DNA of 42,670 nucleotides from Anaerolineales bacterium (GTDB taxonomy: Bacteria > Chloroflexota > Anaerolineae > CG2-30-64-16). A model generated the notes under the pieces. The model was given only the letters and a program-made list of their open reading frames with translations, ran no database searches and was not told the DNA's origin. A program made the position numbers and the translations under genes. Of this stretch, positions 30,299 through 40,531 are shown piece by piece (within the stretch, counting starts at the first letter, position 1; each line of letters opens with the position of its first letter). The stretch is taken from the NCBI GenBank assembly GCA_017882045.1, contig JADGQF010000008.1, forward strand, positions 1-42,670, in the 5' to 3' direction.

Positions 30299-30799
30299 TC
30301 ATGGGCTTGGGGCATCCGCCAGCGCGTTCTGCTTACCTGTCAGCGTTTCGACCCGGATACGGCCGATGGTTATGGCCGCGACCTTGAGGTCGGTCAGCAG
30401 CCGGGCCTTGACGGCGGCCGGGTCCGGCTCGAAACGGTCGATCATGAGCGCCAGGATCCGCCGCTTCTCGTCCGCTTCCTCGACAAACTCGGCACGGCCG
30501 GCAAAGTGCACCGAGCGGTAAGCGTGGTCGCACCTGTCAACCACGTAACCGCGGTCCTCGACCACCTGCCCCCATACCAGCGGGTTGGAGTGCAAATAGT
30601 CGATCTTTTTGCCGTGGTCCGCCGAGTGGAAGAAGAAACAGTTTTCCGCCGGGTCATAGGCGAAGTCGACGGTGACCAGGTAAGGCCGGTTGTCCTGGCA
30701 GAGGGCCAGGGTCATGACTTGCTGCCCGGCAATGATTTCGAGCAGTTCGGCCTGGTCGTCGATCATCAACTCGGGACGGCGAAAGTGGAATTCGCTCAT
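30299..30799 (-). CDS. Pyridoxamine 5'-phosphate oxidase-related flavin split-barrel protein
   Basis: 166 residues. MTLALCQDNRPYLVTVDFAY then FFFHSADHGKKIDYLHSNPL is the NimA/PNPOx-like split barrel, and SVHFAGRAEFVEEADEKRRI closes the flavin site. Such proteins bind FMN, F420 or heme and reduce small molecules. Its ATG 30799 overlaps the P450 stop in ATGA, so the two are co-translated and may act as redox partner and oxygenase, or in linked detoxification. That link is inference. Confidence 0.88.
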   Translation of the reverse strand: MSEFHFRRPELMIDDQAELLEIIAGQQVMTLALCQDNRPYLVTVDFAYDPAENCFFFHSADHGKKIDYLHSNPLVWGQVVEDRGYVVDRCDHAYRSVHFAGRAEFVEEADEKRRILALMIDRFEPDPAAVKARLLTDLKVAAITIGRIRVETLTGKQNALADAPSP

Positions 30800-33048: not shown

Positions 33049-33077
33049 AATATACACTATTCTTCTCAGCCTGTCAA
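33049..33077 (-). promoter_or_regulatory. Near-consensus sigma70 promoter of the 32.8-33.0 kb transcript
   Basis: On the minus strand TTGACA (33072-33077), exactly 17 bp, TATATT (33049-33054). It overlaps the last codons of the methyltransferase gene and points to the 28-codon ORF, the terminator and rsgA. Predicted start near 33042. Confidence 0.7.
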
Positions 33078-33985
33078 GCTTTCGAGCTCGCAAGCTTTGA
33101 GCTCGCGAGCTCGAAGCTCGAAATTCGCTTCCGCGCCAGCGCGCAGTATTCCTCCGATATTTCGAAGCCCACGAAATGGCGCCCGAGTTGCGCGGCGGCC
33201 ACGCACGTCGAACCGGAACCGGCGAAGGGATCGAGGACCACGTCGTCAACGTACGACAGGAGCTTGATGACCCGCGCCGCCAGTGCGACGGGGAAAGGCG
33301 CCGGGTGGCCGACCTTGCGCGCCGACTCGGGCGGGATCTCCCAGATCGATAGCGTGGCCTCCATGAACTCCTCGCCGCTCATGTCCGATACGCCCCGGTC
33401 GGGACGCGAGGCCTGCTCTTTGGCCAGGACCAGCAGGTATTCGTGAATGTCTCTCAGCCGCGGCGATTTGGCGCTGCGCCAGCTTCCCCAGGCGCAACTG
33501 CTGTTGGCGCCCTTGGCCTTCTTCCAGATGATCTCGCCCATCGGCAGGAAGCCGACGTCCATGTGTAACTGGTAGAAATGCGCATGCAGGGGGATGTAGG
33601 GCTTGCGGCCCAGGTTGGCGATGTTTATGACATAGCGCCCGCCGGGCACGAGGACCCGGTAAACCTCGCGCGCCACCCGCCGTATCAGCGCCAGGTAGTC
33701 CTCCAACGACATATCCTGGTCGTACTCTTTGCCATTGTTATAGGGGGGAGAAGTGAAAGCCAGAGCCACGCTGTTGTCGGGAATCGCCATCTGCTCCGAT
33801 GAAGTGCAGTAGATGCGATCGAACCAATTCTCGTGCACCGCGGGCGGGATCTCCTGCTCTTCGGCGCATTCTGTCGGCGCCTCGGTCACGCCGGGCTGGT
33901 ACAGGTTGCGGCTGTAGAACTTCGAGGCGTCATGCCCTTCCCGTTTTGTGGTGCCAAACGAGGATGTTGTGGTTTTCCGGGGCAT
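33074..33985 (-). CDS. Orphan DNA methyltransferase, beta class (N4-cytosine or N6-adenine)
   Basis: 303 residues. Catalytic motif [10 protein letters not shown] (about 78-85) comes first and the AdoMet motif [14 protein letters not shown] (about 262-274) last, the beta-class order. TSPPY is commoner in N4-cytosine enzymes. The front ([16 protein letters not shown]) matches orphan methyltransferases rather than classic R-M pairs, and no endonuclease gene lies beside it. So it may serve regulation or protect against other nucleases. The last 13 codons ([15 protein letters not shown]) are encoded by a short DNA repeat that runs past the stop and look like an accidental extension. GGAGG lies nine bases before ATG 33985, and a promoter is at 34037-34065. 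Confidence 0.93.
33076..33127. repeat. Short AAGCTT/GAGCTCG tandem repeat overlapping a gene end
   Basis: AAGCTTTCGAGCTCGC (33076-33091), AAGCTTTGAGCTCGC (33092-33106), then GAGCTCG, AAGCTCG and AAATTCG. The units are largely self-complementary. They encode the ELASSK-like tail of the methyltransferase and reach its stop codon and the -35 of the next promoter. Confidence 0.65.
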
Positions 33986-34089: not shown

Positions 34090-34740
34090 TTACGGCAATT
34101 CCAGACGGAACCCATAGCCGCGCACGGTCACAATGAAGTCGTGCTTCGGTTGCAGCTCACGCAGACGTAGGCGCAGGCGGTGCACGAGGGCATTGATGGC
34201 ATCGTCCGAGATGCCGCTGGCTTCTTCTCCCGGCCAGACGGCATGGATTACCTCGTCCCGGTTGTAAGCGCGGCCCGGCTCGCTCAGCAGGAGAGCCAGA
34301 AAATCGTACTGGACCTGCGACAGGGGTGGGTCCAGGCGCTCCCCGCGCACCCGCAGGTCGCGCGTCTCGGGCGTCAGCTCCAGCGGCCGCACCCTCTGCC
34401 CGGGTAATGGGGCGGTGGCGGCATAGTCGACGAAAGTGAGGACGTGCAAGGGCGCGACGCTGATCTGGTCGCCGTCCACCAGCGGATGCGGCGCGCTGAT
34501 CAGGCGGCCGTTGAGGTAGGTGCCGTTCTTGGATCCCAGGTCGTGGATTGTATAGGTCAGGCCCTCACGCCGGACTTCGGCGTGGTAGCGCGAGACCCAG
34601 CGATCCTCCACCACGACGTCGTTATCCGGCCAACGTCCGATGCGCACCACCGTCTTGTTGAGCGTCCACTGCTGGCGGATGATCCCACCCTCAAAACGCA
34701 CCAGCAAGGCCGATTCGCTGCCGTTCTCCGTGATTGACAT
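34090..34740 (-). CDS. FHA-winged helix transcription regulator
   Basis: 216 residues. FHA domain at about 30-98: [24 protein letters not shown] and [12 protein letters not shown] hold the Arg, Ser, His and Asn residues that read phosphothreonine. From about 130 an OmpR/PhoB-type winged helix follows: [40 protein letters not shown] and [12 protein letters not shown]. There is no receiver or BTAD domain. This resembles EmbR with the domain order reversed. It would be switched by Thr phosphorylation, most likely by the kinase encoded 84 bp away and divergent. GAGGAG stands four bases before ATG 34740. A TAAAAT at 34774-34779 may be its -10, with a poor -35. Confidence 0.93.
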
Positions 34741-34787
34741 GAAACTCCTCAGAACGCGACGACGGAAGATGGCATTTTACGCGAGGT

Positions 34788-34816
34788 TTGACACTCTCCC
34801 CATTTGCCCGTTAAAC
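34788..34816 (+). promoter_or_regulatory. Promoter of the Ser/Thr kinase gene, leaderless geometry
   Basis: TTGACA (34788-34793), 17 bp, TTAAAC (34811-34816). Transcription would start at about 34823-34825, on or next to GTG 34825, where no usable ribosome site exists. It overlaps the upstream region of the divergent FHA regulator. Confidence 0.55.
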
Positions 34817-34824
34817 TAAGGACC

Positions 34825-35823
34825 GTGTCCAACTCTCTCTCCGCTGGCAGTGTCATCCGCGAGCGCTACCAGGTCGAAGCCCTGATCGGGCAGGGCGGCA
34901 TGGGCGCCGTCTACCGCGTGGCCGACTTGCGTCTGCCGGGGCGTACTTGCGCGCTCAAGGTGCTGCAGACGCAGCTACGCGGCCTGGCGGTCGAAGGGGA
35001 ATTTGGCGACGGGCGCCGGCAGTTTCTGGTCGAGGCCAACACCCTCGCTCGCCTGGACCACCCCAATCTGCCGAAAGTCTCCGACTACTTTGCCCTGGAA
35101 GACTACGACTGCCTGGTGATGGACTATGTACCCGGCCAGGACTTGCAGCAGTGCATCCAGGAGGCGCGCCGCCAGGGGCGCTTCCTGCCGGTAGCAGACG
35201 TGCTCGCCTGGACGGCACAATTGTGTGACGTGCTGGCCTATCTGCACGAGCAGCAGCCGCCGGTGATCCACGGCGATATCAAGCCCGCCAATATTAAACT
35301 GACCTCAGACGGGCGTGTCAAGCTGGTCGACTTCGGCCTCGTGCGCCCGGGTGACCCCGAGGACCCGCGCACTTTGACGGGTTTCGGCTTGCGTGGGGTC
35401 GCCTCGTTGCCCTATGCGGCCCTGGAGCAATACGCCGGCCCTGGCGGTCGGGTGGACGCGCGCACGGACCTCTACAGCCTGGGCGCCACGCTATATCACC
35501 TGGTGACCAACCGGCCGCCGGCCAGTGCCCACGAACGTTTCCTCGACCCGGCTAACCTGCTGCCCCCCTGCCAGGTCAACCCGGCCTTGCCCGGCAGCGT
35601 GCAGCAGGCAATCCTTACGGCCATGCAACCGCATCCCAAGGACCGCCCGGCGTCCGTCGCGGCCTGGCGCAAGCTGCTGGCAAGCCCCGATCTGCCGGTG
35701 CGGAGCGCTGCCCTCGCAGACACGCCGGAGCCCGCGCGCACGGTCTGGCTGGCAAACCGCTGGTATGCGCTCCTGGCCGGCCTGCTCGTTCTCGCCGCGC
35801 TCATCCTCACGTTTCTGCGCTAA
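34825..35823 (+). CDS. Membrane-anchored eukaryotic-like Ser/Thr protein kinase
   Basis: 332 residues. Kinase domain 12-285: glycine loop IGQGGMGAVY, Lys45 in CALKVL, Glu70, catalytic loop VIHGDIKPANIKL with Asp151, and VDFG with Asp169. HRD is HGD, so the arginine that binds a phosphorylated activation loop is missing and the enzyme may not need loop phosphorylation. A single C-terminal TM helix (313-331, YALLAGLLVLAALILTF) ends in Arg with almost no outside part, so signals must be sensed inside or in the membrane. GTG 34825 is preferred; TTG 34804 lies within the promoter. The divergent FHA regulator is the obvious target. Confidence 0.92.
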   Translation: MSNSLSAGSVIRERYQVEALIGQGGMGAVYRVADLRLPGRTCALKVLQTQLRGLAVEGEFGDGRRQFLVEANTLARLDHPNLPKVSDYFALEDYDCLVMDYVPGQDLQQCIQEARRQGRFLPVADVLAWTAQLCDVLAYLHEQQPPVIHGDIKPANIKLTSDGRVKLVDFGLVRPGDPEDPRTLTGFGLRGVASLPYAALEQYAGPGGRVDARTDLYSLGATLYHLVTNRPPASAHERFLDPANLLPPCQVNPALPGSVQQAILTAMQPHPKDRPASVAAWRKLLASPDLPVRSAALADTPEPARTVWLANRWYALLAGLLVLAALILTFLR

Positions 35824-35843: not shown

Positions 35844-38792
35844 CTATGCGTGTCTCTCGACCGCGCCGGCGCGCGCCAGGGGCAGGGTGACCAACCCGCC
35901 AAGCAGCGCCAGGCCGCCGGCTGCAGGGGGGATCTGCCACGCACCGGGCAGCAGCAGGAGGTACAGGATATAGCCGGCCATCCCGCCGCTGATGCACAGC
36001 AACGCCCAACGCACGCGGTGCGCCGGTCGCGCGGCTCGCAGCCCCAGCAACACGAAACCCAGCAACCCGGCCATGGCCATGCCGAGCAGAGCCAGCAGCA
36101 ATCTGCCGGCCCTCGGCCCGAGCGGCAGATTTTCTCCGCCGCTCCCGCCGGGCGACGCTGGCGTCGGGCCGGCGGGTGACGCCGCGGGGGTGACTGTGGC
36201 AGGCTCCGGGACCGGTGAGGGCGTCTGGCTCGCCGTCGCCGTGGGCGTCGGCGGGGGCATCAGCAGCAGGCGCGGACCCTCACCGCGCGCCGAGTCGCCG
36301 CTGCGGGCGCTGAAGACGACGGTGCCTGGTTGGCGCAGGCTGAAGGACACCTGGGCCAGCCCGGCCTTCGTCAGCGCTCCGATAGCGGGCAAATACTGGT
36401 TGCCGGACTCGTAGGCGGCCTCGAAGGTGACTTCCGTCCCGTCGGGCACCAGGTTGCCGTTGTCGTCGATCAAGGGGCCGGCTTGCAGACGCACCGCGGC
36501 GGGGGCCTGCAGGGACTCGCCGCCTGCCGGCTCAAGCAAGCTGATCTCGATCGGCCGGGCCGGGTCAGGCGCGAGTTGGCGCAGCAAGTCGTAGTTGATG
36601 CCTTCGACGTTCACCGGCGAGTGCCCGCGCGGCACGAATTCCCCGAAGAGCGCGCGCACTACCGCCTCGATCGAGGGCGGGGTCTTGCTGTACGCGGCCA
36701 GGTAGAGCGTGAGCTTGCTGATCTGGGTGGTGTCCAGGTAATAAGGTGCATTGAAGGCCAGCACCACCAGCCGGGTGTCGCTCAGGCGGCCGTCGCCATT
36801 GTCGAGGAAGACCCGCACGGCGTCGGCGTTGGCGTCGCGGTCGGTATTACGCATGGCAAAGATGACCCATTTGGCCTGTTCGAGCAGATTCGTGACATCC
36901 GGCCGCGGCGTGGGCGCGGGAGCCGGCTGCGCGGCCGCCGGAGCGGCGGGCGGAGCAGCCGGTTGTACCGTCGGCGTGATCGCCTGGCTACCCTCCAGCA
37001 GTTGGGCCATGTGCGCTTTCAGGTCCATGAACGAGATACTGTGGATGCGCGCCGGGTCGACCTGGCCGGTGCCGCCCGGTCCGTACAGGCGCAGGATGGC
37101 GTCCTGCACGGCAGTCACGGACAGCGGCTCGTACCATGGGCATTCCGGATCGCGGCACTCCTTCACTTGTTCGGAATCGGTGACGATCAGCACGTTCTCA
37201 TTGCGGCGCGGCGGCGTGGGCAGGGTAGCGCCCTGCGGATAGAGCAGGGTCACCGCCTCGCGCGCGATCCTGTTGACAACGGCCGTCCCCTGCCCGGTCA
37301 CCTTGAGAGCGGTGTCGGGCGCCACTTTGACTGCCTGGGGCACGAACTTGCCGCCGTAGAGCTTGATCTTGAGACGCAGGATGCGCGTGACGGCCTCTTC
37401 CACGCGTTGGTGGAACTGCGGGTTAGCCTGGTACTCTTCCTGGAAATAAGCGATCGTATCCGCCAGATTGGCGGTTTGCAGGCTCGCTGCCTGCGGACGA
37501 GCGAACTGGTCGATGCTCAGCAAGTCGTTGCCGGCCATCAGCGCTTCCTTGGCGACCTGTCTGTGCGGGAAGGTCTTCTCACTCGGGTCGAAGTATTTGG
37601 CGACAGCGGGCACGCCCAGCGCGTCGCTGACGATCAAGCCGTTGTCGCGCCAGCGGGCAAACTCGGGCAGGCCCAAGATGCTGTCCATTCCCGCCTCATC
37701 GAAGCTGATAGGCGCGGTAAACTGGCGAATGTTGCCCTGCAGACCGCGGTAGCGGATGTGCGAGGTCATCATCGCGTCGGTGACCGCGCAGTCGCCGACC
37801 GATTCGGCGCCCGTTACGGCGAAGAAGGGCGGCAGCTCGATGCGCTTCAGCTCGGTCAACGACTTGTCGACGGTCGCAATCTCCTGATCGGGCAGGCGAT
37901 CGCTGCCGCCGTGGCCGGGGAAATGCTTGGCGACCGTCGCCACGCGCCCCTGCCCGCCGGCGTGTACCCCGCAAACGTAAGCCCGGCCCATCTGCGCCAC
38001 CCACCACGGATCGCCGCCGAACGTGCGGGTGCCCATGTCGCCGCTGCCCGTCGGGTGGGGGTTATTGAGCACGTCCACGTCGGGACCCAGCAGCAGGTTG
38101 ACGCCCAGGGCGGCCAGTTCTCGCCCGGCGATCTCGCCGACCGCCCTGGCGTTGTCCGGGTTCCAGGTCGCGCCCATCGTCATCGCGTCAGGCAGGAGAG
38201 TCATGCCGCCTGTCACGCGCGTGTAAGGATAGGCGTCCCCCTCGTGATCCAGCGCGACGAAAAGCGGCACCCCTTCACTCTGTAGCGCGACCGCTTGTAA
38301 CGCATCCGTCAAAGTGGCGATCTGTTTCGGCGTCGTGGCGTCGTTGATGAAGTTGTGATTGGTGGAACTGACGATAATCCCGCCCACGTGCTGATCACGG
38401 ACCAGCTTGCCGATGTCGCTGTCCGGCCCGATGTCTCGGTCGCCATAGCTGGTCAGGAAGAGCTGGCCGATCTTCTGCTCCGGGGTCAGCCGTTGCATGA
38501 GCGCGGCGACCGGATCGGCCGCGCCCGCCGGTGAGACTGTCACTGTCGCGCTGGCGGCTACCGTGGGCGCGGGGGTTTCCTCAAGCGTGGATGAAGGTGT
38601 ATTCTGTGTGGGAGCGCTCAGCCCGCCCATCGCGGCCGCCGCGGCGGGCGCAGCGGCGAGCAACGAGGCGCCCGCGCCAGGGAGCGGCAAGGCCAGCGAT
38701 AGGGCGAGCCAGGCGGCCAACAACCACCAGGATGGATGGCGCGTGCCAGGAGCGCCCGTAGTAGCGGGGCCTTGCGAAACTTTCACAAACAC
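35844..38792 (-). CDS. Membrane-anchored GH3 glycosidase (beta-N-acetylhexosaminidase-like)
   Basis: 982 residues. Signal anchor at 22-50 (SWWLLAAWLALSLALPLPG), then a low-complexity linker. GH3 barrel from about 90: KIGQLFLTSYG, VGGIIVSSTNHNF, ALDHEGDAYPYTRV, KHFPGHGGSD (about 289-298) and GLIVSDALG with the likely nucleophile Asp near 392. KHFPGHG is the NagZ signature, but the His/Asp pair in the D-x-H loop is not clear (GHGGSDRLPDQEIAT), so other beta-glycosides are possible. A second alpha/beta domain and a beta-sandwich with a Pro/Thr-rich stalk follow; three TM helices lie at the end (about 905-975). No ribosome site at GTG 38792 or GTG 38786; it is 16 bp after an upstream gene and probably coupled. 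Confidence 0.88.
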   Translation of the reverse strand: MFVKVSQGPATTGAPGTRHPSWWLLAAWLALSLALPLPGAGASLLAAAPAAAAAMGGLSAPTQNTPSSTLEETPAPTVAASATVTVSPAGAADPVAALMQRLTPEQKIGQLFLTSYGDRDIGPDSDIGKLVRDQHVGGIIVSSTNHNFINDATTPKQIATLTDALQAVALQSEGVPLFVALDHEGDAYPYTRVTGGMTLLPDAMTMGATWNPDNARAVGEIAGRELAALGVNLLLGPDVDVLNNPHPTGSGDMGTRTFGGDPWWVAQMGRAYVCGVHAGGQGRVATVAKHFPGHGGSDRLPDQEIATVDKSLTELKRIELPPFFAVTGAESVGDCAVTDAMMTSHIRYRGLQGNIRQFTAPISFDEAGMDSILGLPEFARWRDNGLIVSDALGVPAVAKYFDPSEKTFPHRQVAKEALMAGNDLLSIDQFARPQAASLQTANLADTIAYFQEEYQANPQFHQRVEEAVTRILRLKIKLYGGKFVPQAVKVAPDTALKVTGQGTAVVNRIAREAVTLLYPQGATLPTPPRRNENVLIVTDSEQVKECRDPECPWYEPLSVTAVQDAILRLYGPGGTGQVDPARIHSISFMDLKAHMAQLLEGSQAITPTVQPAAPPAAPAAAQPAPAPTPRPDVTNLLEQAKWVIFAMRNTDRDANADAVRVFLDNGDGRLSDTRLVVLAFNAPYYLDTTQISKLTLYLAAYSKTPPSIEAVVRALFGEFVPRGHSPVNVEGINYDLLRQLAPDPARPIEISLLEPAGGESLQAPAAVRLQAGPLIDDNGNLVPDGTEVTFEAAYESGNQYLPAIGALTKAGLAQVSFSLRQPGTVVFSARSGDSARGEGPRLLLMPPPTPTATASQTPSPVPEPATVTPAASPAGPTPASPGGSGGENLPLGPRAGRLLLALLGMAMAGLLGFVLLGLRAARPAHRVRWALLCISGGMAGYILYLLLLPGAWQIPPAAGGLALLGGLVTLPLARAGAVERHA

Positions 38793-39374: not shown

Positions 39375-39725
39375 CTACTCCGCCGATCCACCATGGGCTT
39401 TGTGCCCACTGTCCTCTCTCTGGAGCGAAGGTCCGCTCTCTCCACCGGCCTGATTGCCCGTCTGCGCCGGTTGCCGGCTCAGTTCGACTGAGTCATCCAC
39501 CAGGCCCGACCAGCGGAACGTGCTGGCCCTCGGCCCGGCGATCAGCCGGGCGCCGGACGCAACAAACAGGCGGGCAACTGAAGGCGTGGGCGCGCCTTTT
39601 AGCGCCGGCCCTTCATAGCTCCTCAGCGCCGACGGCGAAGAGCGCGCCAGCCCGAAGACCGCGATCAGGATCAGGCCGGTTATGAATATGCGGAGCAGGC
39701 TGTCCAGGCTCACGAAACGTATCAT
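39375..39725 (-). CDS. Small single-pass membrane protein downstream of ECF sigma
   Basis: 116 residues. N-terminal TM helix at about 8-24 (SLLRIFITGLILIAVFGLA), then an exported region with GARLIAGPRASTFRWSGLVD and a Gln/Gly/Ser-rich tail. GGAGGAG lies directly before ATG 39725, and it starts 62 bp after the sigma gene, in the place where an anti-sigma is usual. However, there is no zinc-finger motif and no cytoplasmic domain, so it is not a standard anti-sigma. Function unknown. Confidence 0.65.
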   Translation of the reverse strand: MIRFVSLDSLLRIFITGLILIAVFGLARSSPSALRSYEGPALKGAPTPSVARLFVASGARLIAGPRASTFRWSGLVDDSVELSRQPAQTGNQAGGESGPSLQREDSGHKAHGGSAE

Positions 39726-39787
39726 GACTCTCCTCCCGATTAATGACGCCCGGCCGCCCCTTCGGGTTCCCGGTAACACCCTCTTAA

Positions 39788-40402
39788 TCAACGCTCGCTG
39801 CCGCTCCACAGTACTGTCTGGGCAGAGTACTGCCTGGGCAAAAGCTCTTTATGCCCCAGAAGGAAGTCGCGCAGGTGTGCACGCGCCCGGCTCAGGCGCG
39901 ATTTGACCGTTCCCATCGGCATCCCGGTGGCGTCGGCGATCTCCTCGTAGGTCAGGCCTTCCACATCCGATAACAGCACCACCGTGCGTTGGTCAGCCGG
40001 CAAAGCGTGAATGGCGCGCTGGATCAGTTGCCCCAATTCCCGACGCTCGGCGTATTCCGCCGGGCGTTCGCTCCGGTCCACCAACCAGGCTGCCCACTCG
40101 GCCGCGCTATCGTCGTCGTCCAACGACTGGGCCGGGCGCCGCCGGCGCGCGCGCAACTGGTCGTAGCAGGTATTGGTGAGGACGCGCAGGAGCCAGGCCC
40201 TGAACGAGCCTCCCCGGTAGCTGTTTATCGAGCGGTAGGCTTTGAGAAAACTGTCCTGTGTGGCATCGGCCGCGCCGTCGGCGTTGCCCAGGATGTGATA
40301 GGCCACGTTGTAGGCGAGCCCCTGGTATTCGAGCACCAATTGATTGAATGCCCGCAGGTCGCCCTGCTGAGCCGCCGTCACCAACACATCGTCCCGGTCC
40401 AT
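39788..40402 (-). CDS. ECF-type RNA polymerase sigma factor (RpoE/SigW-like)
   Basis: 204 residues. Region 2: FNQLVLEYQGLAYNVAYHIL then AADATQDSFLKAYRSINSYR and FRAWLLRVLTNTCYDQLR. Region 4: LPADQRTVVLLSDVEGLTYE then EIADATGMPMGTVKSRLSRA. An acidic linker (SLDDDDSAAEWAAW) joins them. ATG 40402 has GGGAGA at nine bases; GTG 40408 is too close to it. The gene is followed by a small membrane protein instead of a normal anti-sigma, so its control is unclear. Confidence 0.93.
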   Translation of the reverse strand: MDRDDVLVTAAQQGDLRAFNQLVLEYQGLAYNVAYHILGNADGAADATQDSFLKAYRSINSYRGGSFRAWLLRVLTNTCYDQLRARRRRPAQSLDDDDSAAEWAAWLVDRSERPAEYAERRELGQLIQRAIHALPADQRTVVLLSDVEGLTYEEIADATGMPMGTVKSRLSRARAHLRDFLLGHKELLPRQYSAQTVLWSGSER

Positions 40403-40531
40403 AGCCACTTCTCCCGATCCCTCGTTGTCCGCATTATCGCGCGGGAGTGAGCGGGGCGCTGGTCGCCGGTGTTTCTACTGGGTGACGTCTCGCTGACGGC
40501 GGGAGCGTAAGCTTTTCGTCAGGTTGGCCGG

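Follow-up and report, generated by a model that had tools for sequence, protein, structure and literature searches.

The window, that is, the whole 42,670-nt stretch of contig JADGQF010000008.1 that was analysed, carries the gene of a Ser/Thr protein kinase and, divergent from it, the gene of a regulator that joins an FHA domain to a PhoB-type winged helix. The two proteins are referred to here as the window pair. The kinase and the regulator have been duplicated as a pair and are inherited together across a class, often with a GH3 glycosidase gene alongside, so that they probably form a simple signalling circuit. The reading that we prefer, to which we give about an even chance, is that of a dedicated two-gene, often three-gene signalling unit, in which the kinase would phosphorylate the regulator, most likely at T109, and the FHA domain would read the mark. 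The features of the window that the argument needs are as follows.

34090–34740, minus strand: FHA and PhoB-type winged-helix regulator, 216 residues (Pfam domains, AlphaFold model)
34102–34323, minus strand: winged-helix DNA-binding domain of the regulator, residues 140–213 (Pfam Trans_reg_C, E 7e-13)
34414–34416, minus strand: codon of T109, the Thr of an A-T-A-P-L motif just past the FHA domain (alignment conservation)
34456–34647, minus strand: FHA domain of the regulator, residues 32–95 (Pfam FHA, E 4.3e-21)
34741–34824, no strand: shared spacer of 84 bp, between the regulator start and GTG 34825
34788–34817, plus strand: sigma-70-like promoter towards the kinase, TTGACA-N18-TAAACT (spacer pattern search)
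34818–34822, plus strand: AAGGA, ribosome-site-like, only 2 nt before the GTG start
34825–35823, plus strand: Ser/Thr protein kinase, 332 residues, with a C-terminal membrane tail (Pfam Pkinase, E 1e-31)
35269–35277, plus strand: HGD of the catalytic loop, residues 149–151 (the loop reads HGDIKPAN)
35371–35379, plus strand: T183-x-T185 of the activation loop (108 of 108 kinases keep the two Thr)
35761–35817, plus strand: predicted C-terminal transmembrane-like segment of the kinase, residues 313–331 (hydrophobicity)
35844–38792, minus strand: NagZ-like GH3 glycosidase that converges with the kinase and has a predicted C-terminal membrane anchor (NCBIfam, neighbour survey)

A first-pass annotation of the window had placed the regulator gene at these coordinates, with an FHA domain that precedes the wing and no BTAD, and the domain searches agree: the FHA domain spans residues 32–95, the wing residues 140–213, and Pfam gives no match in the protein to a BTAD or to a receiver domain, while NCBIfam regulator models cover the wing part only. 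The wing is of the PhoB type, with 48.9 bits against the Trans_reg_C cut-off of 26.2 and matches to PDB structures. The phosphothreonine-pocket residues of the FHA domain are present as G35 and R36 (GR), S50 and H53 (SxxH), and N72 and G73 (NG), and all six are intact in 130 of 139 aligned regulators; the alignment holds all but one of 140 sequences, L203 being left out since no start was found for it. The AlphaFold model of the regulator has a mean pLDDT of 91.3 and a pTM of 0.58.

The mechanical open reading frame of the kinase begins at TTG 34804. This codon falls inside the kinase promoter at 34788–34817. We prefer GTG 34825 as the start, which yields exactly the 84-bp spacer from which the two genes had been said to diverge. 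The Hanks-type catalytic residues K45, E70, D151, N156, and D169 are all present in the window kinase, and the active-site residues are intact in 108 of 108 aligned kinases (of 110, the truncated sequences of L074 and L180 were left out). The best 19-residue hydrophobic window of the kinase tail leaves one residue after it, in keeping with the earlier description of a kinase with almost no exterior domain. Such a C-terminal membrane tail was called in 106 of the 108 kinases, the other two being L090, which is cut by a contig end, and L134, which has an odd C end. The window kinase is not a PASTA kinase of the PknB/Stk1 type; NF033483 gives 176 bits against 450, in the kinase part only, and there is no exterior.

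The regulator is widespread in the class. In the window's family, ten of ten genomes, its own included, match it at E ≤ 1e-3, and in the class 185 of 249 genomes match at E ≤ 1e-25. In a phylum-wide draw of 301 genomes, the regulator had a match in 36 of the 38 that belong to the class versus 23 of 263 others, with 222 unmatched genomes taken, from table order, as outside the class. The class draws differ, since 36 of 38 exceeds 185 of 249. From the matches listed for the class, the 140 regulator loci with the highest scores were examined. A kinase of this kind adjoins 110 of them, divergently in 99 and co-directionally in 11, all 11 from one genome family (f15). The gap within a pair has a median of 129 bp and stays within 600 bp for 108 of the 110, according to start calls made by a script rule that may be off (one locus, L072, looked convergent by its start call and was counted as divergent). 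Among the 30 regulator loci lacking a kinase, seven either have fewer than 700 upstream bases or lack a start that could be called. In 23 loci, there are at least 2.9 kb upstream and no kinase there; 17 of the 22 genomes that hold these loci encode a member of this kinase family at another place (E below 1e-84), and in three genomes (G041, G073, and G121) that kinase belongs to a second, paired copy. Chance adjacency of the two genes is rejected: the window's genome has four kinases above the Pfam cut-off, yet such a kinase stands beside 110 of the 140 regulators.

In other classes, 19 of 23 matching loci were examined, and 12 of these have a divergent kinase. One of the 12 (L206) is of the window's kind, and the other 11 are longer, with open frames of 543–881 residues. 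The longer divergent kinases (L208, L210, L214–L221, and L223) have a catalytic loop of the form HRD-[VI]-KPHN.

The evolutionary distances among the kinases follow those among the regulators, with r = 0.86 over 106 pairs, where the maximum of 1000 permutations was 0.16. Trees were built for the same 106 pairs, with L072 and L134 left out besides L074 and L180. Congruence of the two trees partly reflects species descent. The window pair lies in a clade of eight loci that is recovered in both trees, with FastTree support of 86 in the kinase tree and of only 63 in the regulator tree, and second copies from five of this clade's genomes fall outside it. Species descent as the sole cause of the congruence is weakened by this jointly duplicated clade. 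The check that the first-pass annotation had proposed, conservation of the pair across genomes, thus came out in its favour, at 110 of 140 loci in the class and with congruent trees, and the two genes are more firmly linked than the sequence of one window could show.

A second, typical pair lies on another contig of the window's genome (C209, locus L067). Its regulator is 46% identical to that of the window, its kinase has HRD in the catalytic loop, and what we take to be a HemW-like gene follows it on the regulator's strand. In the window kinase, HGD does stand in place of HRD, as had been noted (the loop reads HGDIKPAN), so that the Arg found before the catalytic Asp in RD kinases is missing. 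As a feature of the system, HGD did not hold up: it is local, being found only in the window kinase and in L068 (genome G002), with HRD in 106 of 108 kinases. The same two loci are the only ones among 139 with an Asn at position 183 of the regulator, a residue of the wing's long helix. Since HGD and N183 mark the same two loci, the window pair looks recently diverged, with both partners changed. The window copy is a diverged second pair, with an HGD loop and an altered wing helix, in which activation and targets have perhaps changed too. A scan of the genome contigs gave two loci, matching on the FHA side only. FHA matches in the window's genome at E ≤ 1e-5 are two, both of them kinase-paired regulators, so that the wiring would be testable with little cross-talk.

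A GH3 gene adjoins the kinase in 67 of the 110 loci. In 62 of these, it is convergent at the 3′ end of the kinase; in the remaining five, which are co-directional loci, it is upstream on the same strand. In another 12 of the 110 loci, there are fewer than 600 bases downstream of the kinase, and 31 kinases have at least 600 bases downstream with no GH3 gene there, including four co-directional ones (L112, L117, L127, and L140) with little room upstream, where GH3 sits in the other five. Of the 64 such GH3 proteins whose C end is complete, 63 have a predicted membrane segment there. The association extends to kinases without a regulator. Genomes with an unpaired regulator have 14 kinase loci with no regulator in the stretch examined, and GH3 is convergent in eight of these, or in seven of 13, since the kinase of L262 starts at a contig end and its regulator is perhaps only cut off. 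The window's genome has six GH3 matches, two of them at the two pairs. Its other three kinases are a weak control: two (L270 and L271) are cut by the contig end on the 3′ side, and the third (L272) has room downstream and no GH3.

The GH3 domain of the neighbour in the window is confirmed (1.1e-45), and the protein's best NCBIfam match is to the beta-N-acetylhexosaminidase PRK05337, with 74 bits; the NagZ cut-off of 207 is missed. At the place where NagZ enzymes presumably have D-x-H, the window protein carries KHFPGHGGSDRLPDQE, and the relatives shown have D-x-E or E-x-E. The GH3 protein is likely the third member of the unit, and its link to the kinase, though a case of guilt by association, is the best clue to function.

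Other neighbours in the window are the following. An N6/N4 DNA methyltransferase gene (33074–33985, minus strand; Pfam 1.6e-44) lies 104 bp past the regulator on the same strand, and no relative of it was found among the open reading frames of all loci examined beyond the window's own copy. A cytochrome P450 gene (30796–32196, minus strand; Pfam 1.8e-84) adjoins the gene of a pyridoxamine-5-phosphate-oxidase-like protein (30299–30799, minus strand). An ECF-like sigma factor gene (39788–40408, minus strand; Sigma70_r2 and r4_2) overlaps a small downstream reading frame, 39375–39809, which might encode its anti-sigma factor.

Just past the FHA domain, at the position of T109, Thr is found in 135 of 139 regulators: in 110 of 110 that are linked to a kinase and in 25 of 29 that are not. 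The fuller motif, T-x-P-[LIVM], is found in 103 of the 110 linked regulators. The difference between linked and unlinked regulators at T109 is suggestive only, because three of the four regulators without the Thr (L114, L148, and L152) come from one genome family, f33. These three are unpaired, and at that exact place they read L-S-[DE]-E-E. In the loci of other classes, the Thr mostly stays, for example as D-P-E-A-T-V-K-G, mostly without the P-L, as judged by eye. As a wingless control, we used 10 distinct stretches with an FHA domain but no wing, taken from all loci examined and continuing for at least 18 residues. None of the 10 has T-x-P-[LIVM] at the T109 place. A Thr within two residues of that place is found in two of them (L241 and L251) versus 153 of 155 winged FHA proteins, a comparison in which many of the 155 had built the profile and the control is small.

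We suggest, as a best guess from these alignments, that T109 in its T-x-P-L setting is a candidate phospho-switch of the regulator. Many FHA domains favour a hydrophobic residue three after the threonine. The FHA domain might then bind the regulator's own phosphothreonine, in the manner of GarA and OdhI, with the conserved T-x-P-L motif as the feature that points to it. Some observations count against it. Of the 29 unlinked regulators, 22 also retain T-x-P-[LIVM], although 17 of 22 such genomes encode a close kinase at another place. In the AlphaFold model, T109 lies five residues past the last FHA strand (residues 100–104), where the linker to the wing begins, and it is not clearly disordered, as its block, residues 101–110, has a mean pLDDT of 81; that of residues 111–120 is 67.

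In the unit that we propose, the kinase would be held at the membrane by its single C-terminal helix, with almost nothing outside, and would phosphorylate the adjoining regulator, most likely at T109. The FHA domain would bind pT109 in its own or its partner's chain, and this binding would shift how the winged helices are held and alter DNA binding. Through its link to a membrane-anchored NagZ-like GH3 protein, the unit may report on or adjust cell-envelope turnover. Against such a unit count the 23 regulators with at least 2.9 kb upstream and no kinase, the 31 kinases with room downstream and no GH3 gene, the P-L part that is mostly missing in other classes, and spacers in which no operator was found. 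A kinase-to-promoter circuit is the best reading because the pair is co-conserved and co-inherited and because the regulator lacks a BTAD and its FHA domain precedes the wing. It is tempting to go further and to see here a class-wide, three-part envelope-sensing pathway. The kinase would sense wall turnover through its helix and the anchor of the GH3 protein and would write one phosphothreonine beside the FHA domain, to be read by the regulator itself; with FHA in the receiver's place, this would be a two-component system in Ser/Thr currency. We offer this larger picture only tentatively.

The regulator might instead be controlled by docking, with its FHA domain binding the autophosphorylated loop of the kinase (T183/T185) rather than its own phosphosite, and so be held at the membrane. 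T183 and T185 are kept in all 108 kinases, 97 of the 108 have V, I, or L three residues past T183, 106 have the membrane tail, and the FHA domain of EmbR is essential for its interaction with PknH, according to the available text of PMC9239209. The window kinase, however, has G three residues after T183, and docking leaves the T109 of 110 of 110 linked regulators unexplained, so we regard this mode of control as unlikely. It is also doubtful that T109 and P111 have a structural role, namely to close off the last FHA strand, and that the regulator reads phosphothreonines on other proteins. The position of T109, five residues past that strand in a block with a pLDDT of 81, would suit such a role, as would its retention in 25 of 29 unlinked regulators, but none of the 10 wingless FHA proteins has the motif at that place, and a single kinase is indicated by the pairing of the genes and by their duplication together.

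The first-pass annotation had proposed to look in the shared spacer for palindromes conserved among relatives and had suggested that the regulator may control its own shared promoter. An operator in the spacer is rejected. No inverted or direct repeat of at least 8 bp was found in the window spacer, and a gapped k-mer search of 93 spacers returned chiefly words that contain TTGACA or are Shine-Dalgarno-like. Of the 99 divergent loci, the 93 whose gap was called at 10–600 bp supplied these spacers; four were left out for overlapping start calls (L072, L090, L096, and L180) and two for being longer (L153 and L174). The sole strongly conserved element is the sigma-70-like promoter towards the kinase. 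The strict promoter pattern occurs in 67 of the 93 spacers towards the kinase and in none towards the regulator, where shuffled spacers give means of 0.81 and 0.61 and maxima of 5 and 3, respectively. In the columns that flank TTGACA, a hexamer itself fixed by selection in this analysis, there are the −10 box and a weaker signal at a few adjacent positions. A relaxed score, with 20 shuffles per spacer, reaches an empirical p ≤ 0.05 in 86% of 91 spacers towards the kinase and in 26% towards the regulator, so that some regulator-ward promoters are likely. With no palindrome and a strict promoter pattern in the kinase direction only, autoregulation is unsupported; the ideas of a shared palindrome and of HGD do not generalise. 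If the regulator does act on the kinase promoter, repression would be likelier than activation, as the promoter is near consensus. In the window, the −10 box ends 7 nt before GTG 34825. Transcription from the promoter at 34788 would leave AAGGA out of the message, and the kinase may therefore have a leaderless transcript. Of the 67 loci where such a promoter was found, 10 have 6–9 nt between the −10 box and the kinase start.

A constitutively active window kinase (HGD without the RD arginine) together with a regulator that controls the shared promoter would agree with the HGD loop, the intact catalytic residues, and the relaxed regulator-ward signal in 26% of 91 spacers, but it is very unlikely, as HGD occurs in just two of 108 kinases, both of which keep the activation-loop Thr, and the spacer has no palindrome and a strict promoter pattern that is kinase-ward only. 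A non-RD loop does not by itself show constitutive activity, and the loop threonines T183 and T185 are retained.

Most known Ser/Thr kinases of bacteria act on many targets, and for few of them is a transcription factor known that serves the kinase alone. Here, a kinase has been inherited along with its likely reader throughout a class. Should T109 be the switch, the phosphorylation of a Thr would be turned into control of a promoter by a simple rule. The GH3 neighbour offers a first clue to the signal.

Each half of the regulator resembles proteins of known systems. Its wing matches the structures of PhoB, ArlR, and RegX3, but an FHA domain stands where response regulators of the OmpR/PhoB group have a receiver domain. 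The FHA domain matches those of GarA and OdhI in sequence and in structure, and one of the PDB chains matched is named Rv1827 pThr 22. GarA and OdhI bind their own phosphothreonine, which is N-terminal; unlike the regulator, they have no DNA-binding domain. None of the 50 structure matches shown covers both domains of the regulator model, the aligned parts covering about 92–111 columns of the 216 residues. EspM of Mycobacterium marinum is also a transcription factor with an N-terminal FHA domain and a C-terminal helix-turn-helix, but EspM contains a pair of HTH domains along with a helical bundle, and a kinase partner is not mentioned in the available part of the source (PMC11005418).

Kinase and FHA genes as neighbours are known in mycobacteria, as the part of PMC1262709 at hand states, and the available text of PMC4238996 gives PknB-Rv0019c, PknF-Rv1747, and PknH-EmbR as shared loci. 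These differ from the present pair in their partners, and that text does not mention a GH3 neighbour. No description of this kinase/FHA-wing pair was found in the literature searched, a search that had subscription journals mostly outside its scope. The nearest worked-out system is PknH/EmbR of Mycobacterium tuberculosis. EmbR is the top structure match to the regulator model, in the FHA part only. As in the window, a Ser/Thr kinase adjoins an FHA regulator with an OmpR/PhoB-like wing, and the accessible part of PMC9239209 reports that the FHA domain is essential for the interaction of EmbR with PknH and for its phosphorylation by PknH, and that no phosphorylation of EmbR was found in the cell under normal conditions. 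In the same source, EmbR has the order wing-BTAD-FHA and shares an operon with pknH, whereas the window pair has FHA-wing, no BTAD, a mostly divergent arrangement in the class, and a kinase almost without an exterior. To judge from these likenesses, the window pair may work like PknH/EmbR but with another architecture.
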